DNA from: Pseudomonas nicosulfuronedens
Lineage (GTDB): Bacteria > Pseudomonadota > Gammaproteobacteria > Pseudomonadales > Pseudomonadaceae
Reading direction: 5' to 3'
Length of the DNA: 64,000 nt
Assembly (NCBI RefSeq): GCF_005877905.1
Contig: NZ_SWDV01000001.1
Span: forward strand, 310,001 to 374,000
How positions within the stretch are numbered: position 1 is the first letter of the stretch; each line of letters opens with the position of its first letter. Positions 7,444 to 25,035 of this stretch are shown in pieces. The translations under genes were made by a program, and so were the position numbers. Under the pieces are notes generated by a model, which ran no database searches, was not told the DNA's origin, and saw only the letters and a program-made list of their open reading frames with translations.

Positions 7444-9039
7444 ATGAGTACCGTGATCGATCACCCCGACCATTCTCACGCCGGCGACCACCACCACGGC
7501 CCCGCCAAGGGCCTGATGCGCTGGGTTCTCACCACCAACCACAAGGACATCGGCACGCTGTACCTGTGGTTCAGCTTCTGCGCCTTCCTGCTCGGCGGCT
7601 CCTTCGCCATGGTGATCCGCGCCGAGCTGTTCCAGCCAGGCCTGCAGATCGTCGAGCCGGCGTTCTTCAACCAGATGACCACCATGCACGGCCTGGTGAT
7701 GGTCTTCGGTGCGGTGATGCCGGCCTTCGTCGGCCTGGCCAACTGGATGGTGCCGCTGATGATCGGTGCGCCGGACATGGCCCTGCCACGCATGAACAAC
7801 TTCAGCTTCTGGCTGCTACCGGCGGCCTTCGGCCTGCTGGTGAGCACCCTGTTCATGCCCGGCGGCGGACCGAACTTCGGCTGGACCTTCTACGCACCGC
7901 TGTCGACGACCTTCGCGCCGCACAGCGTGACCTTCTTCATCTTCGCCATCCACCTGATGGGCATGAGTTCGATCATGGGCGCGATCAACGTGATCGCCAC
8001 CATCCTCAACCTGCGTGCCCCGGGCATGACGCTGATGAAGATGCCGCTGTTCGTCTGGACCTGGCTGATCACCGCCTTCCTGCTGATCGCGGTGATGCCG
8101 GTGCTGGCCGGTTGCGTGACGATGATGCTGATGGACATCCACTTCGGCACCAGCTTCTTCAGCGCGGCCGGCGGCGGCGACCCGGTGCTGTTCCAGCACG
8201 TGTTCTGGTTCTTCGGCCACCCCGAGGTGTACATCATGATCCTGCCGGCGTTCGGCGCCGTCAGCTCGATCATCCCGGCCTTCAGCCGCAAGCCGCTGTT
8301 CGGCTACACCTCGATGGTCTACGCCACCGCCTCGATCGCCTTCCTGTCCTTCGTCGTGTGGGCGCACCACATGTTCGTGGTGGGCATTCCGCTGGTGGGC
8401 GAGCTGTTCTTCATGTACGCGACCATGCTGATCGCCGTGCCCACTGGGGTGAAGGTGTTCAACTGGGCGTCGACCATGTGGCAGGGTTCGCTGACCTTCG
8501 AGACGCCGATGCTGTTCGCCGTGGCCTTCGTCATCCTGTTCACCATCGGCGGCTTCTCCGGGCTGATGCTGGCCATCGCCCCGGCGGACTTCCAGTACCA
8601 GGACACCTACTTCGTGGTGGCGCACTTCCACTACGTGCTGGTGCCCGGCGCGATCTTCGGCATCTTCGCCTCGGCCTACTACTGGCTGCCGAAGTGGACC
8701 GGCCACATGTACGACGAGACCCTGGGCAAGCTGCACTTCTGGATGAGCTTCATCGGCATGAACCTGGCGTTCTTCCCGATGCACTTCGTCGGCCTGGCCG
8801 GCATGCCGCGACGGATTCCGGACTACAACCTGCAGTTCGCCGACTTCAACATGGTCTCGTCCATCGGCGCCTTCATGTTCGGCACCACGCAGCTGCTGTT
8901 CCTGTTCATCGTCATCAAGTGCATCAAGGGCGGCAAGCCGGCACCGGCCAAGCCGTGGGATGGCGCGGAAGGCCTGGAGTGGACGATCCCGTCGCCGGCG
9001 CCTTACCACACCTTCAGCACGCCCCCGGAAGTGAAGTGA
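7444..9039 (+). CDS. coxA: Cytochrome c oxidase subunit I
   Basis: A 531-residue inner-membrane protein that holds heme a, heme a3 and CuB and reduces O2 to water while pumping protons. All landmark motifs are visible: the heme a ligand in MTTMHGLVMVFG, the CuB histidine and cross-linked tyrosine in HPEVYIMILPAFG, the CuB pair in WAHHMF and the heme ligands in FVVAHFHYVLV. The glutamate-containing HPEVY form marks an A-type oxidase. A strong AAGGAGG site precedes ATG 7444. A REP element sits between this gene and ctaG, although both belong to one cluster. Confidence 0.98.
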   Translation: MSTVIDHPDHSHAGDHHHGPAKGLMRWVLTTNHKDIGTLYLWFSFCAFLLGGSFAMVIRAELFQPGLQIVEPAFFNQMTTMHGLVMVFGAVMPAFVGLANWMVPLMIGAPDMALPRMNNFSFWLLPAAFGLLVSTLFMPGGGPNFGWTFYAPLSTTFAPHSVTFFIFAIHLMGMSSIMGAINVIATILNLRAPGMTLMKMPLFVWTWLITAFLLIAVMPVLAGCVTMMLMDIHFGTSFFSAAGGGDPVLFQHVFWFFGHPEVYIMILPAFGAVSSIIPAFSRKPLFGYTSMVYATASIAFLSFVVWAHHMFVVGIPLVGELFFMYATMLIAVPTGVKVFNWASTMWQGSLTFETPMLFAVAFVILFTIGGFSGLMLAIAPADFQYQDTYFVVAHFHYVLVPGAIFGIFASAYYWLPKWTGHMYDETLGKLHFWMSFIGMNLAFFPMHFVGLAGMPRRIPDYNLQFADFNMVSSIGAFMFGTTQLLFLFIVIKCIKGGKPAPAKPWDGAEGLEWTIPSPAPYHTFSTPPEVK

Positions 9040-20520: not shown

Positions 20521-21058
20521 GTACAGTTCGCCCCGAAAAAGACCATTACAGTTCAAAATTACAATCGCCTGACCAGGCGCAATACCGTGCAACTGTACCT
20601 GTCATCCCTGACCAAAAAGTCAGATCATATGCTCAATCCATTCAGCAACTGACTACTCGCCACAAGCGAGAAGGATGACCACCATGGAACGTACCCTCGG
20701 TTCCGCAGCTCTGAGCACCACCCGTAGCACCTCCAGCGCCCACCGTGGCCTCGTCGGCACCGTTCGCCTGTGGCAGCGCCGCATGGAAAGCCGCCGTCAG
20801 CTGGCCCGCCTGGACTCCCGTCTGCTGGCCGACGCCGGCATCAGCGAAGCCCAGCGTTACGCCGAACTGAACAAGCCGTTCTGGCGCTGATTCAACAGTA
20901 CAACTGAGCCACTCTCTCCAGGCTCACTCTGACTGTACTGGTAGTTCGCCTGAGGCCGCTCATCTGGAGCGGCCCTTGGCATTCTGGAAGTCCGCTTTTC
21001 CGCACCCTCTCCCCTCGCTGATCACAGAACAGCCAGCTGCAACCGTGGCAGTACAGTT
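20521..21058. promoter_or_regulatory. Repeated GTACAGTT-type words around the DUF1127 genes
   Basis: GTACAGTT occurs at 20521-20528 and 21051-21058, TTACAGTT at 20546-20553, and the reverse word AACTGTACC at 20591-20599. Related forms AACAGTACAACT and GACTGTACTGG lie near 20894 and 20931. All are in the non-coding DNA before (20327-20683) or between (20891-21170) the two DUF1127 genes. The words resemble operators of MocR/GntR-type regulators; none is encoded in the window. Confidence 0.5.
20684..20890 (+). CDS. DUF1127 small basic protein, copy 1
   Basis: A 68-residue protein whose C-terminal half is the DUF1127 domain: RLWQRRMESRRQLARLDSRL, then LADAGISEAQRYAELNKPFWR. The N-terminal 25 residues are Ser/Thr-rich and unrelated to copy 2. 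ATG 20684 is chosen over ATG 20675 because AAGGA (20671-20675) is eight bases upstream of it. In alpha-proteobacteria DUF1127 proteins bind RNA or affect phosphate and carbon metabolism; in Pseudomonas the role is open. Upstream DNA carries several GTACAGTT words. Confidence 0.8.
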   Translation: MERTLGSAALSTTRSTSSAHRGLVGTVRLWQRRMESRRQLARLDSRLLADAGISEAQRYAELNKPFWR

Positions 21059-21170
21059 CTGAATTTCACCTCGCTGTACCCCCGCAATAACCCTTCGCTG
21101 CCTCTGACGCACCCTCTCGACCAGTGCGAGCCTGTATTGACCGTCCACCACGGTCACAAGGAGGCCCGCC

Positions 21171-21371
21171 ATGGAACGCGCACTGTCATCCGATCTGCCC
21201 ACGCTGCGCCCTGCCCCGCTGCTGCGTCGTCTGCCCGCTGTATTCAGGGAATGGCTTCGCAACGCACGAACCCGCCGCCAGCTCGCCGAGCTGACCAGCT
21301 TGCAGCTGGCCGACTTGGGCATCAGCCCCAGCGAACGCGTGAGAGAAATCTCGAAACCATTCTGGCGCTGA
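21171..21371 (+). CDS. DUF1127 small basic protein, copy 2
   Basis: A 66-residue paralogue of the gene 280 bases upstream. The shared part is the domain WLRNARTRRQLAELTSLQL, then LADLGISPSERVREISKPFWR, ending in the same PFWR. AAGGAGG precedes ATG 21171 by a good distance. The long gap between the copies holds GTACAGTT-type words, so the two may be independently promoted under the same regulator. It is followed by the DUF2388 array. Confidence 0.8.
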   Translation: MERALSSDLPTLRPAPLLRRLPAVFREWLRNARTRRQLAELTSLQLADLGISPSERVREISKPFWR

Positions 21372-21464
21372 ATGCTGGTGACCCCGGTCAGTCTTGGCTA
21401 GTCTGAGCACAGTTAGAGTGGCCGACCCGGCCACCTTTGCCTGGTCTTACTCCGGAGCCACTCC

Positions 21465-21785
21465 ATGAACAAAAGTCTTCGCCTGATCGCCGCCGCCGCT
21501 TTGATCGGTTGCGCCACCGGCGCCTACGCCACCAGCTTCGTCTACACCACCGACCTGTCGGTACGCGCCACCGGCGCCACCTCCGACGGCACCTCGGACC
21601 TGAGCAACTCCTTCAAGGATGACAAGATCGTGCTGGAAGCCCGTGACGACGCAGCGACCTTCGTCGCCAGCCAGGGCCAGATCCGCGGCGCGCACCTGGA
21701 AGCCGCCCTCGCCCACATCCGCAGCAAGCTGCCGACCCTGGCCGCCAATGACCAGCAACTGGCCCAGGCCATCCTGACCATCTGA
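21465..21785 (+). CDS. Exported DUF2388 protein, copy 1
   Basis: A 106-residue protein with a signal peptide (MNKSLRLIAAAALIGCATGAY, cut after ATS or YAT). The mature part has the DUF2388 pattern: a Ser/Thr-rich N-terminus, then EARDDAATFVAS, IRGAHLEAALAHIR and NDQQLAQAILTI. DUF2388 (also TIGR02448) is nearly confined to Pseudomonas and has no known function. It is the first of three tandem paralogues that lead into a coupled DUF4105 gene. ATG 21465 follows a GGAG site. Confidence 0.82.
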   Translation: MNKSLRLIAAAALIGCATGAYATSFVYTTDLSVRATGATSDGTSDLSNSFKDDKIVLEARDDAATFVASQGQIRGAHLEAALAHIRSKLPTLAANDQQLAQAILTI

Positions 21786-21808
21786 GTGATTCATCACTGA
21801 ATCCCGCC

Positions 21809-21832
21809 GCGCCGGGCGCTCCCGCCCGGCGC
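21809..21832. terminator. GC-rich hairpin between DUF2388 copies 1 and 2
   Basis: A 10-bp stem (GCGCCGGGCG / CGCCCGGCGC) closes a four-base loop 24 bases after the first DUF2388 stop. There is no T-run, so full termination is doubtful; it may set different transcript levels for copy 1 and the genes that follow. Confidence 0.45.
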
Positions 21833-21900
21833 TCTGCGCTGGCTCTCCACCGCGCATTCCGTTAGCCTTGTGGGCCGTGCTTTTCCGATCGTCCGAGCCC

Positions 21901-22194
21901 ATGCGTACCTTGCTGTTCCTGCTGCCGTTGCTGACCTGTTCGCTGCCCGCCTGGGCATTCGACCAGACCACCCAGTTCCCGGTAGCGACCAGCTATGCCA
22001 CCAGCCAGGTCACCAGCGCGCCCTTCGACAACAAACTGCTGCGCGGCGCCCGCGACGACGCGGCGCAGTTCGTTGCCACCGATGGAGCCCTGCGCGGTGC
22101 GCGCCTGGAGGCTGCACTGCACTGGCTGCGCCAGCGACATCCGGAGCTGGCGGCGAATGATCGGGAACTGGCCGAAGCCATTCTTGCCAAATAA
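21901..22194 (+). CDS. Exported DUF2388 protein, copy 2
   Basis: A 97-residue paralogue with a clear signal peptide (MRTLLFLLPLLTCSLPAWA). The mature protein repeats the family pattern: TTQFPVATSYATSQVTSAPF, then GARDDAAQFVA, LRGARLEAALHWLR and NDRELAEAILAK. The ribosome site before ATG 21901 is weak; an in-frame GTG at 21868 would add 11 residues in front of the signal peptide and is less likely. It is 37 bases upstream of copy 3, so they are probably co-transcribed. Confidence 0.8.
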   Translation: MRTLLFLLPLLTCSLPAWAFDQTTQFPVATSYATSQVTSAPFDNKLLRGARDDAAQFVATDGALRGARLEAALHWLRQRHPELAANDRELAEAILAK

Positions 22195-22231
22195 GTCGTG
22201 AGCAGCTCCCGCTGCCCTTTCGGAGACATCC

Positions 22232-22567
22232 ATGCGCCTCAGCTCGCTTTCCAAGAGCCCCCTGATCCTCGGCCTGCTGCTCGCCGCCTGCGCGTCCACC
22301 GCCCAGGCCCAATCGGTGGTCCGCGTGTTCAACATCACCACCAACGCCTTCGCCCGCAGCATCGACTTCACCTCGGACACCACCACCTCCGTGCGTGATA
22401 TGAAGGTCGTCCGCGAAGCCCGTGACGATGCCGCCAGCTATGTCGGCAGCGACGGCGCGATCCGTGGTGCGCAGCTGGAAGCCGCGTTCAAGGTACTGCG
22501 CGAGCAGGTGCCGCAGGCGCGCGAAGCCTCCGACCAGGACCTGGCCGAAGCCATCCTCGCTCTGTGA
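22232..22567 (+). CDS. Exported DUF2388 protein, copy 3
   Basis: A 111-residue paralogue with a signal peptide ending near STAQA. The core reads NITTNAFARSIDFTSDTT, EARDDAASYVGS, IRGAQLEAAFKVLR and SDQDLAEAILAL. A cysteine at residue 20 (LLAAC) could mark a lipoprotein, but the AQA site fits ordinary cleavage as well. Its TGA stop overlaps the GTG start of the DUF4105 gene by four bases (GTGA), so the two are translationally coupled. Confidence 0.82.
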   Translation: MRLSSLSKSPLILGLLLAACASTAQAQSVVRVFNITTNAFARSIDFTSDTTTSVRDMKVVREARDDAASYVGSDGAIRGAQLEAAFKVLREQVPQAREASDQDLAEAILAL

Positions 22568-24522
22568 GACTCCGGGCTGGCCGCTGGCTGGCGGCCCTGG
22601 CACTGATCGTCGCCGCCAGCAGCCACGCCGCGCTCCGCCTGGAGCTGGACACCGACGGCCTGAGCGCCGCCCAGCGCCAGGCTAGCCAGCAACTGCTGGA
22701 CGAAGCCCTGCACACCCTGCCGGACAGCTTCGTGCAGCGCCTGGACCGCAGCGTCCAGGTGCAATGGCGCGACGACCTGCCCAGCAATGGCATGGGCCGC
22801 ACCCTGCGTCCCGGCGCCATTGCCCTGAATACCCGCTATCTCGGCCCGCTCACCGACGGCAGCGCCGCCACCGAGCAGACCGGCCGCACCCACGGCACCC
22901 TGCGCCGTGAGCTGCTGGCCACGCTGCTCCATGAGCTGACCCACCTCTACGACCGCGCACGCCTCTGGGATACCGAGGAAGGCCGGGTGATCCGCCGCTG
23001 CACGATGCGCGACAAGAGCCTCGGTCGCGTCGGCGCACCGGACGATTGCCGTGGCCAGACCGGCCGCCGCTTCAGCCTCTCGGACGATCCACGCCTGCTC
23101 GACCTTGCTGGCTGGCCGCAGTACGCCGGTAAACACGGCGAGCGCGAGCAGCACAACCGTTTCCTGCTGCGCAGCCCGGACAAGTACGAACTGACCAACC
23201 CGCGCGAGTACGTCGCGGTGAACATGGAGTACTTCCTCCTCGACCGCAGCTTCGCCTGCCGTCGCCCGGCGCTGTACCGCTACTACGCGGAGCGCTTCGG
23301 CGAGCGCCCGCATGACCCATGCTCGACGCAATACGCCTACCTCAACGCCGGCCGCGACTTCGGTCGCCAGCCACTGGGTTACCTGGACCCTGAGCGTGTC
23401 TACGAGGTCGACTACCTGATCGCCGAGGCCAACAACGAGATCGCCAGCCGCTGGGGCCACACCATGCTGCGCCTGGTGGTCTGCGCACCCGGGCGCCCGC
23501 GTGGCCCGGCCTGTCGGCTGGACCTGGACCAGCACCTGGTGCTGTCCTACCGCGCCTTCGTCGGCGACCTACAGCTCTCCAGCTGGGACGGACTGACCGG
23601 CGCCTATCCCTCGCGCCTGTTCGTGCTGCCACTGTCCCAGGTGATCGAGGAGTACACCAAGGTCGAGCTGCGCAGCCTTGCTTCGATCCCGCTCAAGCTC
23701 AGCCGCGACGAAGTCGCCAGCCTGGTGGAGCGCTCGGCGCAGAGCCACTGGAGCTACGACGGCAATTACTACTTCCTGTCCAACAACTGCGCGGTGGAAA
23801 CGCTCAAGCTGCTGCGCAGCGGCATCCAGCGCCAGAGCCTGCAGACCATGGACAGCATCACGCCCTACGGTGTTCTCGGCCTGCTGGAGAACAAGGGTAT
23901 CGCCGACGCTAGCGTGCTCGACAACCCCAAGGAAGCCCTGCGCCTGGGCTATCGCTTCGACTCCTTCCGCGACCGCTACCAGGCCATGTTCGACGTGCTG
24001 AAGCAGCGCATGAACGTCCCGCAGGAGAAGGTCGAGGACTGGCTCGCCCTCCCCGCTGTCGACCGCCGCCCGTGGTTCGACAAGGCCGACCTGCGCTCCA
24101 GCGCCGCCCTGCTGCTGCTTGAGCAGGCCTCGCTACGCCGTCAGCTGCTGCTGGCCCAGGACGAGCTCAAGCGCCTCTACCTGAGCAACCCGGACGCCAT
24201 GAAGAGCAAGCCGGACCTCGCGGCAGCCGGCAAGACGTTGCAGCAGATCCTCGACGACAGCGGCTTCCTCAGCCGCCCGGCCGAGCTGCTCGACGGCGGC
24301 TATGGCCTGCCCCAGGCGCCGGAGACGGCGACCCTGGAGAAGCAGACGCAGCAGCGCCAGCAGCGCCTGCGCCAGCTCAGCGACAACCTCGACCGCGAAG
24401 TGCGCGCCCTGCTCACTCCGGAGCGTCGTGACGAGCTGGCTGCGCTGGAAGCCAACACCAAGCAGATCGGCGCGCACCTGCGCGAGCTGCACAAGGCTTC
24501 GGGCGGGCTGGAGCTGCCCTGA
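22564..24522 (+). CDS. Periplasmic DUF4105 protein with Lnb-like His/Cys pair
   Basis: A 652-residue exported protein (signal peptide MRLRAGRWLAALALIVAASS-HA). The N-terminal third contains HELTHLYDRARLWD, a peptidase-like HExxH. The middle is the DUF4105 domain, now known as the Lnb N-terminal domain, an NlpC/P60-like fold; its expected catalytic pair is seen as H299 (SRWGHTMLRL) and C409 (LSNNCAVETLK). In enterococcal Lnb such a pair moves acyl chains on lipoproteins. The last 130 residues are a charged helical, coiled-coil-like tail. It starts with GTG 22564 inside the stop of DUF2388 copy 3. Substrate unknown. Confidence 0.8.
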   Translation: MRLRAGRWLAALALIVAASSHAALRLELDTDGLSAAQRQASQQLLDEALHTLPDSFVQRLDRSVQVQWRDDLPSNGMGRTLRPGAIALNTRYLGPLTDGSAATEQTGRTHGTLRRELLATLLHELTHLYDRARLWDTEEGRVIRRCTMRDKSLGRVGAPDDCRGQTGRRFSLSDDPRLLDLAGWPQYAGKHGEREQHNRFLLRSPDKYELTNPREYVAVNMEYFLLDRSFACRRPALYRYYAERFGERPHDPCSTQYAYLNAGRDFGRQPLGYLDPERVYEVDYLIAEANNEIASRWGHTMLRLVVCAPGRPRGPACRLDLDQHLVLSYRAFVGDLQLSSWDGLTGAYPSRLFVLPLSQVIEEYTKVELRSLASIPLKLSRDEVASLVERSAQSHWSYDGNYYFLSNNCAVETLKLLRSGIQRQSLQTMDSITPYGVLGLLENKGIADASVLDNPKEALRLGYRFDSFRDRYQAMFDVLKQRMNVPQEKVEDWLALPAVDRRPWFDKADLRSSAALLLLEQASLRRQLLLAQDELKRLYLSNPDAMKSKPDLAAAGKTLQQILDDSGFLSRPAELLDGGYGLPQAPETATLEKQTQQRQQRLRQLSDNLDREVRALLTPERRDELAALEANTKQIGAHLRELHKASGGLELP

Positions 24523-24540
24523 GGCCCACTGGCTGGACGG

Positions 24541-24610
24541 TTTGCGAGCAAGCTCGCTCCTACAGGCTGAAAACCGTGCCGCCCTTCGTAGGAGCGAGCT
24601 TGCTCGCGAA
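24541..24610. repeat. REP inverted pair
   Basis: Two inverted GTAGGAGCGAGCTTGCTCGC copies are separated by about 25 bases. They lie between the convergent DUF4105 and GFA-type genes, a typical REP position. Confidence 0.88.
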
Positions 24611-24633
24611 CCTTCCTGGTCAGGCCACCAGAA

Positions 24634-25035
24634 CTAGAGCCTCTCCTCCCACTCCTCTTCCAGCTGCTCGTCCAGGTGAATCCACGGCAGCCGGCTGTTC
24701 ACCCAGATATGCCGGTTCGGCAGCACCGTGGCGACCTCCTCCAGCGTCGCGGTGGTGATATCCAGCGTCTCCGGAGCCTGGTCCGTGAACAGGGCCAACT
24801 GGGCACCGCAGTTGCGGCAGAAGTAACGCACACAGGGCGGCGAAGAGCGGTACTCGGCAGGCTTGCCGTGAGTCCAGCGAAAACTCTTCAGCGGCACTGT
24901 CGTCCAGGTCGTGACGATGCCGCCGGTGGTACGCCGGCAGATCGAGCAATGGCAATGGGCGACGTCCGTCAGTTCGGCATCGCATTCGTAACGCAGTTGG
25001 CCGCAATGGCAGCCGCCGGTATGTACGGCACTCAT
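24634..25035 (-). CDS. GFA family (glutathione-dependent formaldehyde-activating-like) zinc protein
   Basis: A 133-residue protein with the cysteine set of the GFA/CENP-V fold: GGCHCGQLRYEC, then AHCHCSICRR, then YFCRNCGAQLALF. These bind structural and catalytic zinc. Despite the family name, few members have a proven reaction with S-hydroxymethyl-glutathione. The start ATG 25035 follows GGGAGGATC. It shares the strand with the PhyH-type dioxygenase gene 15 bases upstream, so the two may be co-transcribed. Confidence 0.88.
   Translation of the reverse strand: MSAVHTGGCHCGQLRYECDAELTDVAHCHCSICRRTTGGIVTTWTTVPLKSFRWTHGKPAEYRSSPPCVRYFCRNCGAQLALFTDQAPETLDITTATLEEVATVLPNRHIWVNSRLPWIHLDEQLEEEWEERL

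Follow-up and report, generated by a model that had tools for sequence, protein, structure and literature searches.

Gene organization of the locus

The window, a 64,000-nucleotide stretch of the Pseudomonas nicosulfuronedens genome (contig NZ_SWDV01000001.1, positions 310,001 to 374,000, forward strand), contains four genes that lie in a single direction between positions 21465 and 24522. The first three encode small DUF2388 proteins, here designated P-3, P-2 and P-1 by their distance from the fourth gene, which encodes a predicted enzyme with a DUF7844 and an Lnb_N domain (Table 1). An earlier note, made from the sequence alone, had described a tandem array of three exported DUF2388 paralogues, the last of them overlapping a DUF4105 gene through a GTGA tetranucleotide. 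Both features are confirmed: the three proteins score 104.8 to 110.1 bits with PF09498, above its curated cut-off, and begin with signal-peptide-like sequences ending in A-x-A, as judged by eye; the GTGA is present where P-1 ends. The motif EARDDAA...(I/L)RGA.LEAA...LA.AIL, which the same note took to be common to the paralogues, is real in all three. For P-2, the mechanical list of open reading frames begins at a TTG codon (21868); the ATG codon at 21901 was taken instead. The ratio of nonsynonymous to synonymous substitution rates (dN/dS) ranged from 0 to 0.46 in 24 of 24 comparisons (four genes against six relatives). Thus, all four open reading frames are real genes under purifying selection.

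The four proteins are members of DUF2388 (PF09498/TIGR02448) and of DUF7844 (PF25226) plus Lnb_N (PF13387). Family libraries assign no function to DUF2388 or DUF7844, in keeping with the earlier statement that the small proteins have no known role. Within the open-licence literature of PubMed Central, a scope that leaves out most subscription papers, no paper describing the module turned up: DUF2388 is named in two papers, without a function in the portions of text retrieved, DUF4105 also in two, DUF7844 is not mentioned, and TIGR02448 has zero occurrences among the matches listed.

Table 1. Features of the DUF2388-enzyme locus, in window coordinates. Cut-offs: PF09498, 25 bits; TIGR02448, 53.85 bits; PF25226, 27 bits; PF13387, 22.2 bits.
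Feature	Position	Strand	Evidence
DUF2388 paralogue P-3, 106 residues	21465..21785	+	PF09498 110.1 bits; TIGR02448 130.9 bits
DUF2388 paralogue P-2, 97 residues from ATG	21901..22194	+	PF09498 104.8 bits; TIGR02448 115.3 bits
DUF2388 paralogue P-1, 111 residues, adjoins enzyme	22232..22567	+	PF09498 105.6 bits; TIGR02448 118 bits
GTGA: enzyme GTG start overlapping P-1 stop	22564..22567	+	
Exported two-domain enzyme, 652 residues: signal peptide, DUF7844, Lnb_N, helical C-terminal region	22564..24522	+	
DUF7844 domain, residues 25-251	22636..23316	+	PF25226 367.9 bits
HExxH (HELTH, residues 123-127), predicted zinc site	22930..22944	+	H123, E124, H127 invariant in 31/31 diverse rows
E215, predicted third zinc ligand	23206..23208	+	Invariant in 31/31 rows; aligned with MtfA by HMMER and by hhalign
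Lnb_N (DUF4105) domain, residues 273-440	23380..23883	+	PF13387 97 bits
H299 (WGHTMLR), His of permuted NlpC/P60 pair	23458..23460	+	Invariant in 31-row alignment
C409 (NNCAVET), Cys of permuted NlpC/P60 pair	23788..23790	+	Invariant in 31-row alignment

The fourth gene encodes a predicted two-domain enzyme

The earlier note had called the product of the fourth gene Lnb-like. An Lnb_N domain is indeed present, well above its cut-off (97 versus 22.2 bits) and with the His/Cys pair, but that description missed the DUF7844 half of the protein (367.9 versus 27 bits), predicted to be a zinc metallopeptidase with an HExxH motif and a Glu ligand, distantly like MtfA and the M90 peptidases. H123, E124 and H127 have a conservation of 1.00 across 122 rows of relatives, and E215 aligns with the Glu of the DPAECFAV segment of MtfA. 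The enzyme shares with MtfA (M90; E. coli MtfA, 9srw, 3dl1/3khi) both the HExxH motif and a DAY...PxE...EYF segment; in MtfA, zinc is bound by the HExxH together with a third, Glu ligand. MtfA is cytosolic and is regulated by binding Mlc. Unlike MtfA, the window enzyme is exported, is fused to an Lnb_N domain and falls under the Pfam cut-off for peptidase M90 (14.2 versus 26.2 bits; relatives reach 18.1 and 21.4).

An AlphaFold model of the enzyme has a predicted local distance difference test score (pLDDT) of 85.3 and a predicted template modelling score of 0.83. A VIA-align fold search returned metallopeptidase matches over residues 22-247 and a match to TseH (6v98) over residues 277-471. 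The helical C-terminal third has no Pfam match over cut-off. By sequence, two predicted active sites are preserved complete in the enzyme: a metallopeptidase site made of the HExxH and the Glu, and the Lnb_N site with its His/Cys pair.

With Lnb, TseH and Tox-Act1 the enzyme shares the Lnb_N domain, a His preceding the Cys and a TseH-like fold. It differs from them in that Lnb_N stands behind a metallopeptidase-like domain and that its gene accompanies those of small exported proteins in which no lipobox is conserved. Passages of one paper treat the permuted NlpC/P60 group as lipid-directed, report that Lnb, the lipoprotein N-acyltransferase of Bacteroides, is a DUF4105 protein, and find that Tox-Act1 and, in one assay, TseH have phospholipase activity (PMC12994826). 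A passage of another counts DUF4105 as one of the papain-like families and speculates that it may work with resistance transporters or in translocation (PMC10318531).

The genome of the window has another Lnb_N protein (L094:6045-7910, minus strand, on contig C2), with a DUF7843-Lnb_N-DUF7840 build and no DUF7844. H299 and C409 of the window enzyme align with its GHTLLR and ENCSFRL motifs. By eye, the C-terminus of that protein (RWYHY) looks like the end of an outer-membrane barrel.

The DUF2388 proteins combine a probably disordered tail with a helical domain

In an AlphaFold model of mature P-1, residues 1-30 have pLDDT values of 49-56, and three helices (32-46, 54-66 and 75-84) stand at about 83-90. 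The underlying alignment had 50 rows, namely the three window proteins and 47 of 53 dereplicated sequences, six having been removed by hand (five with extra N-terminal residues and one resembling another row). Columns that never vary among these 50 diverse rows are D-A, G, D and L-A. In 98 of 98 dereplicated rows, the segment preceding a conserved Lys, at most 24 residues long, is rich in Ser and Thr (mean 34%, versus 8% in the DUF2388 domain, which served as the comparison). DUF2388 proteins consist of a Ser/Thr-rich, probably disordered tail and a conserved three-helix domain. A search of the PDB with DUF2388 gave no useful neighbour.

A tree of the family (98 rows from 341, 84 columns; 29 of the 95 inner branches open and the bootstrap not settled) groups P-1 proteins in a clade of 21 rows (support 100/100) and P-2 proteins in a clade of 24 rows (100/89), the remaining rows being P-3-like, from family f58 of another order (see below) or unlinked to an enzyme. 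P-1 and P-2 proteins each have tail signatures of their own; beginning at the conserved Lys, the domain is a shared one. Among dereplicated rows from Pseudomonadaceae loci with one copy, five of six are P-3-like and one (L119) is of the P-1 type.

The signal peptides of the window proteins contain lipobox-like cysteines (LIGC, LLTC and LAAC). With start codons chosen by rule, a Cys falls within residues 9-34 in 12 of 73 P-1, 52 of 73 P-2 and 13 of 73 P-3 precursors and in 0 of 12 from two-copy loci. The tails of the 98 rows have no Cys, yet 7 of 73 P-2 precursors have one beyond residue 34. The notion that DUF2388 proteins are lipoproteins was rejected, the lipobox Cys not being conserved.

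Further DUF2388 genes lie elsewhere in the same genome, as they do in many others. Two of a distinct type, with an SSGATTAS-like tail motif, are found on contig C1 at about 66.5-67.3 kb (L091:6465-7347), between a multihaem-cytochrome/TPR-like gene and gcvP (names assigned by eye). A diverged copy on contig C5 (L092:6736-7263) is near what by eye is a GST-like gene; our guess is that it corresponds to P. putida PP_3743. A 31-residue match of 27 bits on contig C14 (L093:6473-6700) is remnant-like, perhaps a decayed copy.

Linkage of the two families in Pseudomonadaceae

In all, 137 enzyme loci were read, some of them perhaps from genomes of the same species: the window, one locus each from 80 named genomes (the best 80 of 509 relatives in a scan with the enzyme, all Pseudomonas), 34 Pseudomonadaceae loci, ten larger regions picked from Pseudomonadaceae (eight) and family f58 (two), and 12 further f58 loci. 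DUF2388 genes lie upstream of the enzyme gene in 79 of the 80 best relatives; in the exception (L078), the contig end lies 5 bases before the match. Over the 137 loci, three upstream DUF2388 genes are found in 85, two in 30, one in 21 and none in L078, the counts for the 34 Pseudomonadaceae loci being minima because these hold only about 1.4 kb of upstream sequence or less. An in-frame enzyme start (chosen by rule) with the same -4 overlap occurs at 107 of the 136 loci that have an upstream DUF2388 gene, and coupled production of the two proteins is therefore likely.

Of 79 sampled Pseudomonadaceae genomes, 65 have DUF7844 and 66 have DUF2388; both occur in 65, neither in 13 and DUF2388 alone in one (G179). 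The latter genome is 78% complete, and its copy (L165) is of the same unlinked type as the L091 pair and likewise located beside gcvP. Within the 75 good genomes, the DUF7844 and DUF2388 sets coincide (64 with both, 11 with neither). Neighbourhoods were read in 43 of the 65 genomes holding both families. In the sampled genomes, DUF7844 is never represented by more than one gene, two matches in each f58 genome and in G228 (see below) being two pieces of one gene; DUF2388 genes number 1 to 8 where both families occur. Three genomes of genus g102 (L137, L141 and L142; 3.2-3.3 Mb) have 6-8 DUF2388 genes, with one enzyme and two linked copies each.

Co-occurrence and adjacency of DUF2388 and DUF4105 genes, which the earlier note had named as the check on its proposal, are thus near-universal in the sample. 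The association is with the DUF7844-type enzyme and not with DUF4105/Lnb_N as such: the contig that carries the L094 protein has no DUF2388, and the enzyme-less Pseudomonadaceae genomes G150 and G214 keep an Lnb_N protein and have no DUF2388. Genera g95, g99 and g106 comprise positive and negative species, all at least 93% complete; the pair has therefore been lost together, a pattern that linkage alone could cause.

Occurrence outside Pseudomonadaceae

The array had been thought to be largely Pseudomonas-specific. This is wrong, for the pair is found in 16 of the 19 sampled genera of Pseudomonadaceae as well as in family f58 of another order, and perhaps in family f57. Of 145 genomes from the order that includes the window's genome, 5 carry DUF7844, and each of these is from Pseudomonadaceae. 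In a sample of the class, 4 of 274 genomes have DUF2388, two of them from f58. Among 121 genomes of the order to which f58 belongs, 14 have one DUF2388 gene each; all are f58, and the enzyme gene adjoins in 14 of 14. A locus scan covering the 14 f58 genomes never found both profiles in one frame, as a fused gene would give. The f58 enzymes L135 and L136 are without the stretch around C146/C162 and keep all predicted catalytic residues. In a sample of the phylum, DUF7844 scores over its cut-off in 22 of 398 genomes, which belong without exception to families f1 or f58; nine f227 genomes have weak hits below it, in frames of 269-286 residues, an MtfA-like length.

One f57 genome (G228) encodes a DUF7844-Lnb_N enzyme and has no DUF2388 by Pfam; the other genome from the order of f57 (87% complete) has no DUF7844 match. 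By eye, the HExxH, Glu, His and Cys are retained in the G228 enzyme and Y208 is replaced by His. Directly upstream lies a gene for a 103-residue, exported-looking protein with a Ser-rich tail (L179:491-802; the enzyme begins at 812). This protein scores 9.1 bits on the DUF2388 profile. Among 20,000 shuffles, 4 score as high, as do 2 of 5,212 control reading frames (the 319 with at least 40 bits having been removed from 5,531); hhalign with DUF2388 gives an E-value of 0.0079 and a probability of only 5%. These values are suggestive, rather than proof, of a DUF2388 partner persisting in very diverged form. The module thus extends to a second family, of another order, and perhaps to a third. The coupling of DUF2388 to the enzyme is old.

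The Pseudomonas aeruginosa counterpart

In P. aeruginosa PA7 (L022), three DUF2388 genes and the enzyme gene are followed by a GFA-like gene, a permease-like gene, a fourth DUF2388 gene (8552-8803), a citrate-transporter-like gene and a TerC-like gene; names other than DUF2388 and enzyme were read from the sequences by eye. According to a passage of PMC2771283, PA5466 is permease-like and PA5468 is probably a citrate transporter. From this gene order, the module of strain PAO1 should comprise PA5461-PA5463, PA5464 (the enzyme) and PA5467. One list in a passage of PMC4412052, of genes that change with cis-2-decenoic acid, includes PA5463. Two other assignments of the P. aeruginosa genes were discarded. 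One was PA3785-PA3787; a table in PMC9431628 has PA3785 as the copper chaperone PCu(A)C, and passages of other papers on PA3785 and PA3786 make no mention of DUF2388. The second, PA5441/PA5442, was unsupported among the matches listed.

Surroundings of the array

Upstream, the window has CoA transferase and DUF1127 genes; the corresponding neighbours in PA7 are, by eye, glycosyltransferase-like genes. Two consecutive DUF1127 genes just 5' of the array (20675-20890 and 21171-21371, plus strand) both end in KPFWR. Directly 3' of the enzyme gene, at 24535-24616, is an inverted pair with 29-nucleotide arms (GCGAGCAAGCTCGCTCCTAC type, 93% complementary), resembling a Pseudomonas REP (repetitive extragenic palindromic) pair. 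A GFA-family gene lies 3' of the enzyme gene, and a similar one is found in PA7. Scanning 20900-24700 for promoters and terminators gave 0 promoter-like sites and one terminator-like site, not above shuffled sequences. A block upstream is preserved in close relatives; the analysis yielded no regulator.

A mobile-element or defence reading was dropped after plasmid, phage and PADLOC searches. None of the four proteins matched a PADLOC defence model at E 0.1. In plasmids, the matches to the enzyme were confined to 5 records of remote DUF4105 proteins from Acinetobacter, with about 26% identity across 35% of the query, and the P-1 protein had no match; the phage search, made with the enzyme and not with DUF2388, returned two records of the same kind.

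A possible enzyme-client module of the cell envelope

We tentatively favor the view that these genes form a conserved envelope module, made of one exported enzyme and dedicated small DUF2388 clients, in which the enzyme recognizes the helical domain and processes the tail. The layout would work like that of PPEP-1 and PPEP-2, secreted Pro-Pro endopeptidases whose substrates are encoded by neighbouring genes and, in the case of PPEP-1, at other genomic sites as well. DUF2388 genes, with linked and unlinked copies, follow the same pattern as the PPEP-1 substrates and are therefore favored as clients. The likeness does not extend to the enzymes: the PPEPs, from Gram-positive bacteria, are small single proteases with Pro-Pro as their cleavage site, and the window enzyme has two domains; nor, by eye, is there a Pro-Pro, the motif for PPEP-like cleavage, in the three window DUF2388 sequences.

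After export, the enzyme would grip the three-helix domain common to its clients as a handle and act on the flexible tail, which differs between paralogues and would be where cutting or modification takes place. The metallopeptidase domain may cut this tail, and the Lnb_N domain may perform thioester chemistry on the same client or on lipid, moving or hydrolyzing an acyl group. The earlier suggestion of small substrates or modulators served by one periplasmic enzyme fits this scheme, except that the enzyme is not only Lnb-like.

The strongest alternative, somewhat unlikely in our estimate, is that the true substrate lies elsewhere and that DUF2388 proteins regulate the enzyme or help it fold, as an activator, an inhibitor or a chaperone subunit. 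Parallels would be the control of MtfA by Mlc and a protease encoded together with its inhibitor. The compact helical nature of the conserved part is consistent with such a role. The overlap of the last DUF2388 gene with the enzyme start, the 21 of 136 loci with one DUF2388 gene and one enzyme, and the single DUF2388 gene genome-wide in the 14 f58 genomes suit this alternative equally well. Against a regulatory or folding partner stand the up to three paralogues per locus and the unlinked copies, all for only one enzyme; separate DUF2388 lineages with distinct tails also suggest several clients and not one regulator.

We consider it unlikely that these are merely co-transcribed envelope-stress genes whose products share a compartment and make no mutual contact. 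Genetic linkage alone would explain the co-loss, and other surroundings can be conserved too, such as the GFA-family gene after the enzyme gene in the window and in PA7. Copies without an enzyme nearby, for example those beside gcvP and near the GST-like gene, and the listing of the P. putida DUF2388 gene PP_3743 as over-expressed in an alr mutant, in the portion of PMC6034422 retrieved, point the same way. However, the pair stays together in f58 of another order, and the upstream neighbours differ between the window and PA7.

Very improbable is a role as an Lnb-type lipoprotein N-acyltransferase with DUF2388 proteins as its lipoprotein substrates: the Lnb_N His/Cys pair, the report on Bacteroides Lnb cited above and the lipobox-like Cys of the window signal peptides speak for it, but for DUF2388 it is largely refuted by the lack of conservation of that Cys and by the absence of Cys from the tails of the 98 rows, notwithstanding the seven P-2 precursors with a Cys beyond residue 34.

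A bolder form of the client model, which we regard as improbable, is a cut-and-acylate machine in one exported polypeptide: the metallopeptidase site would first trim the Ser/Thr-rich tail, and the Lnb_N Cys would then move a phospholipid acyl group to the new N-terminus or to a Ser/Thr of the tail. If true, this would be a cysteine-independent route of protein lipidation in the Gram-negative envelope, dispensing with the lipobox Cys. One protein joins two predicted catalytic domains for very different bonds, a metallopeptidase and a permuted NlpC/P60 domain of a type that handles acyl chains. The enzyme occurs in P. aeruginosa PA7 and in 65 of the 79 Pseudomonadaceae genomes sampled, its gene nearly always accompanied by those of its own small exported proteins. 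A common role, open to testing, would thereby fall to DUF2388, to DUF7844 and to one DUF4105 branch, and the genome itself points to the likely partner.

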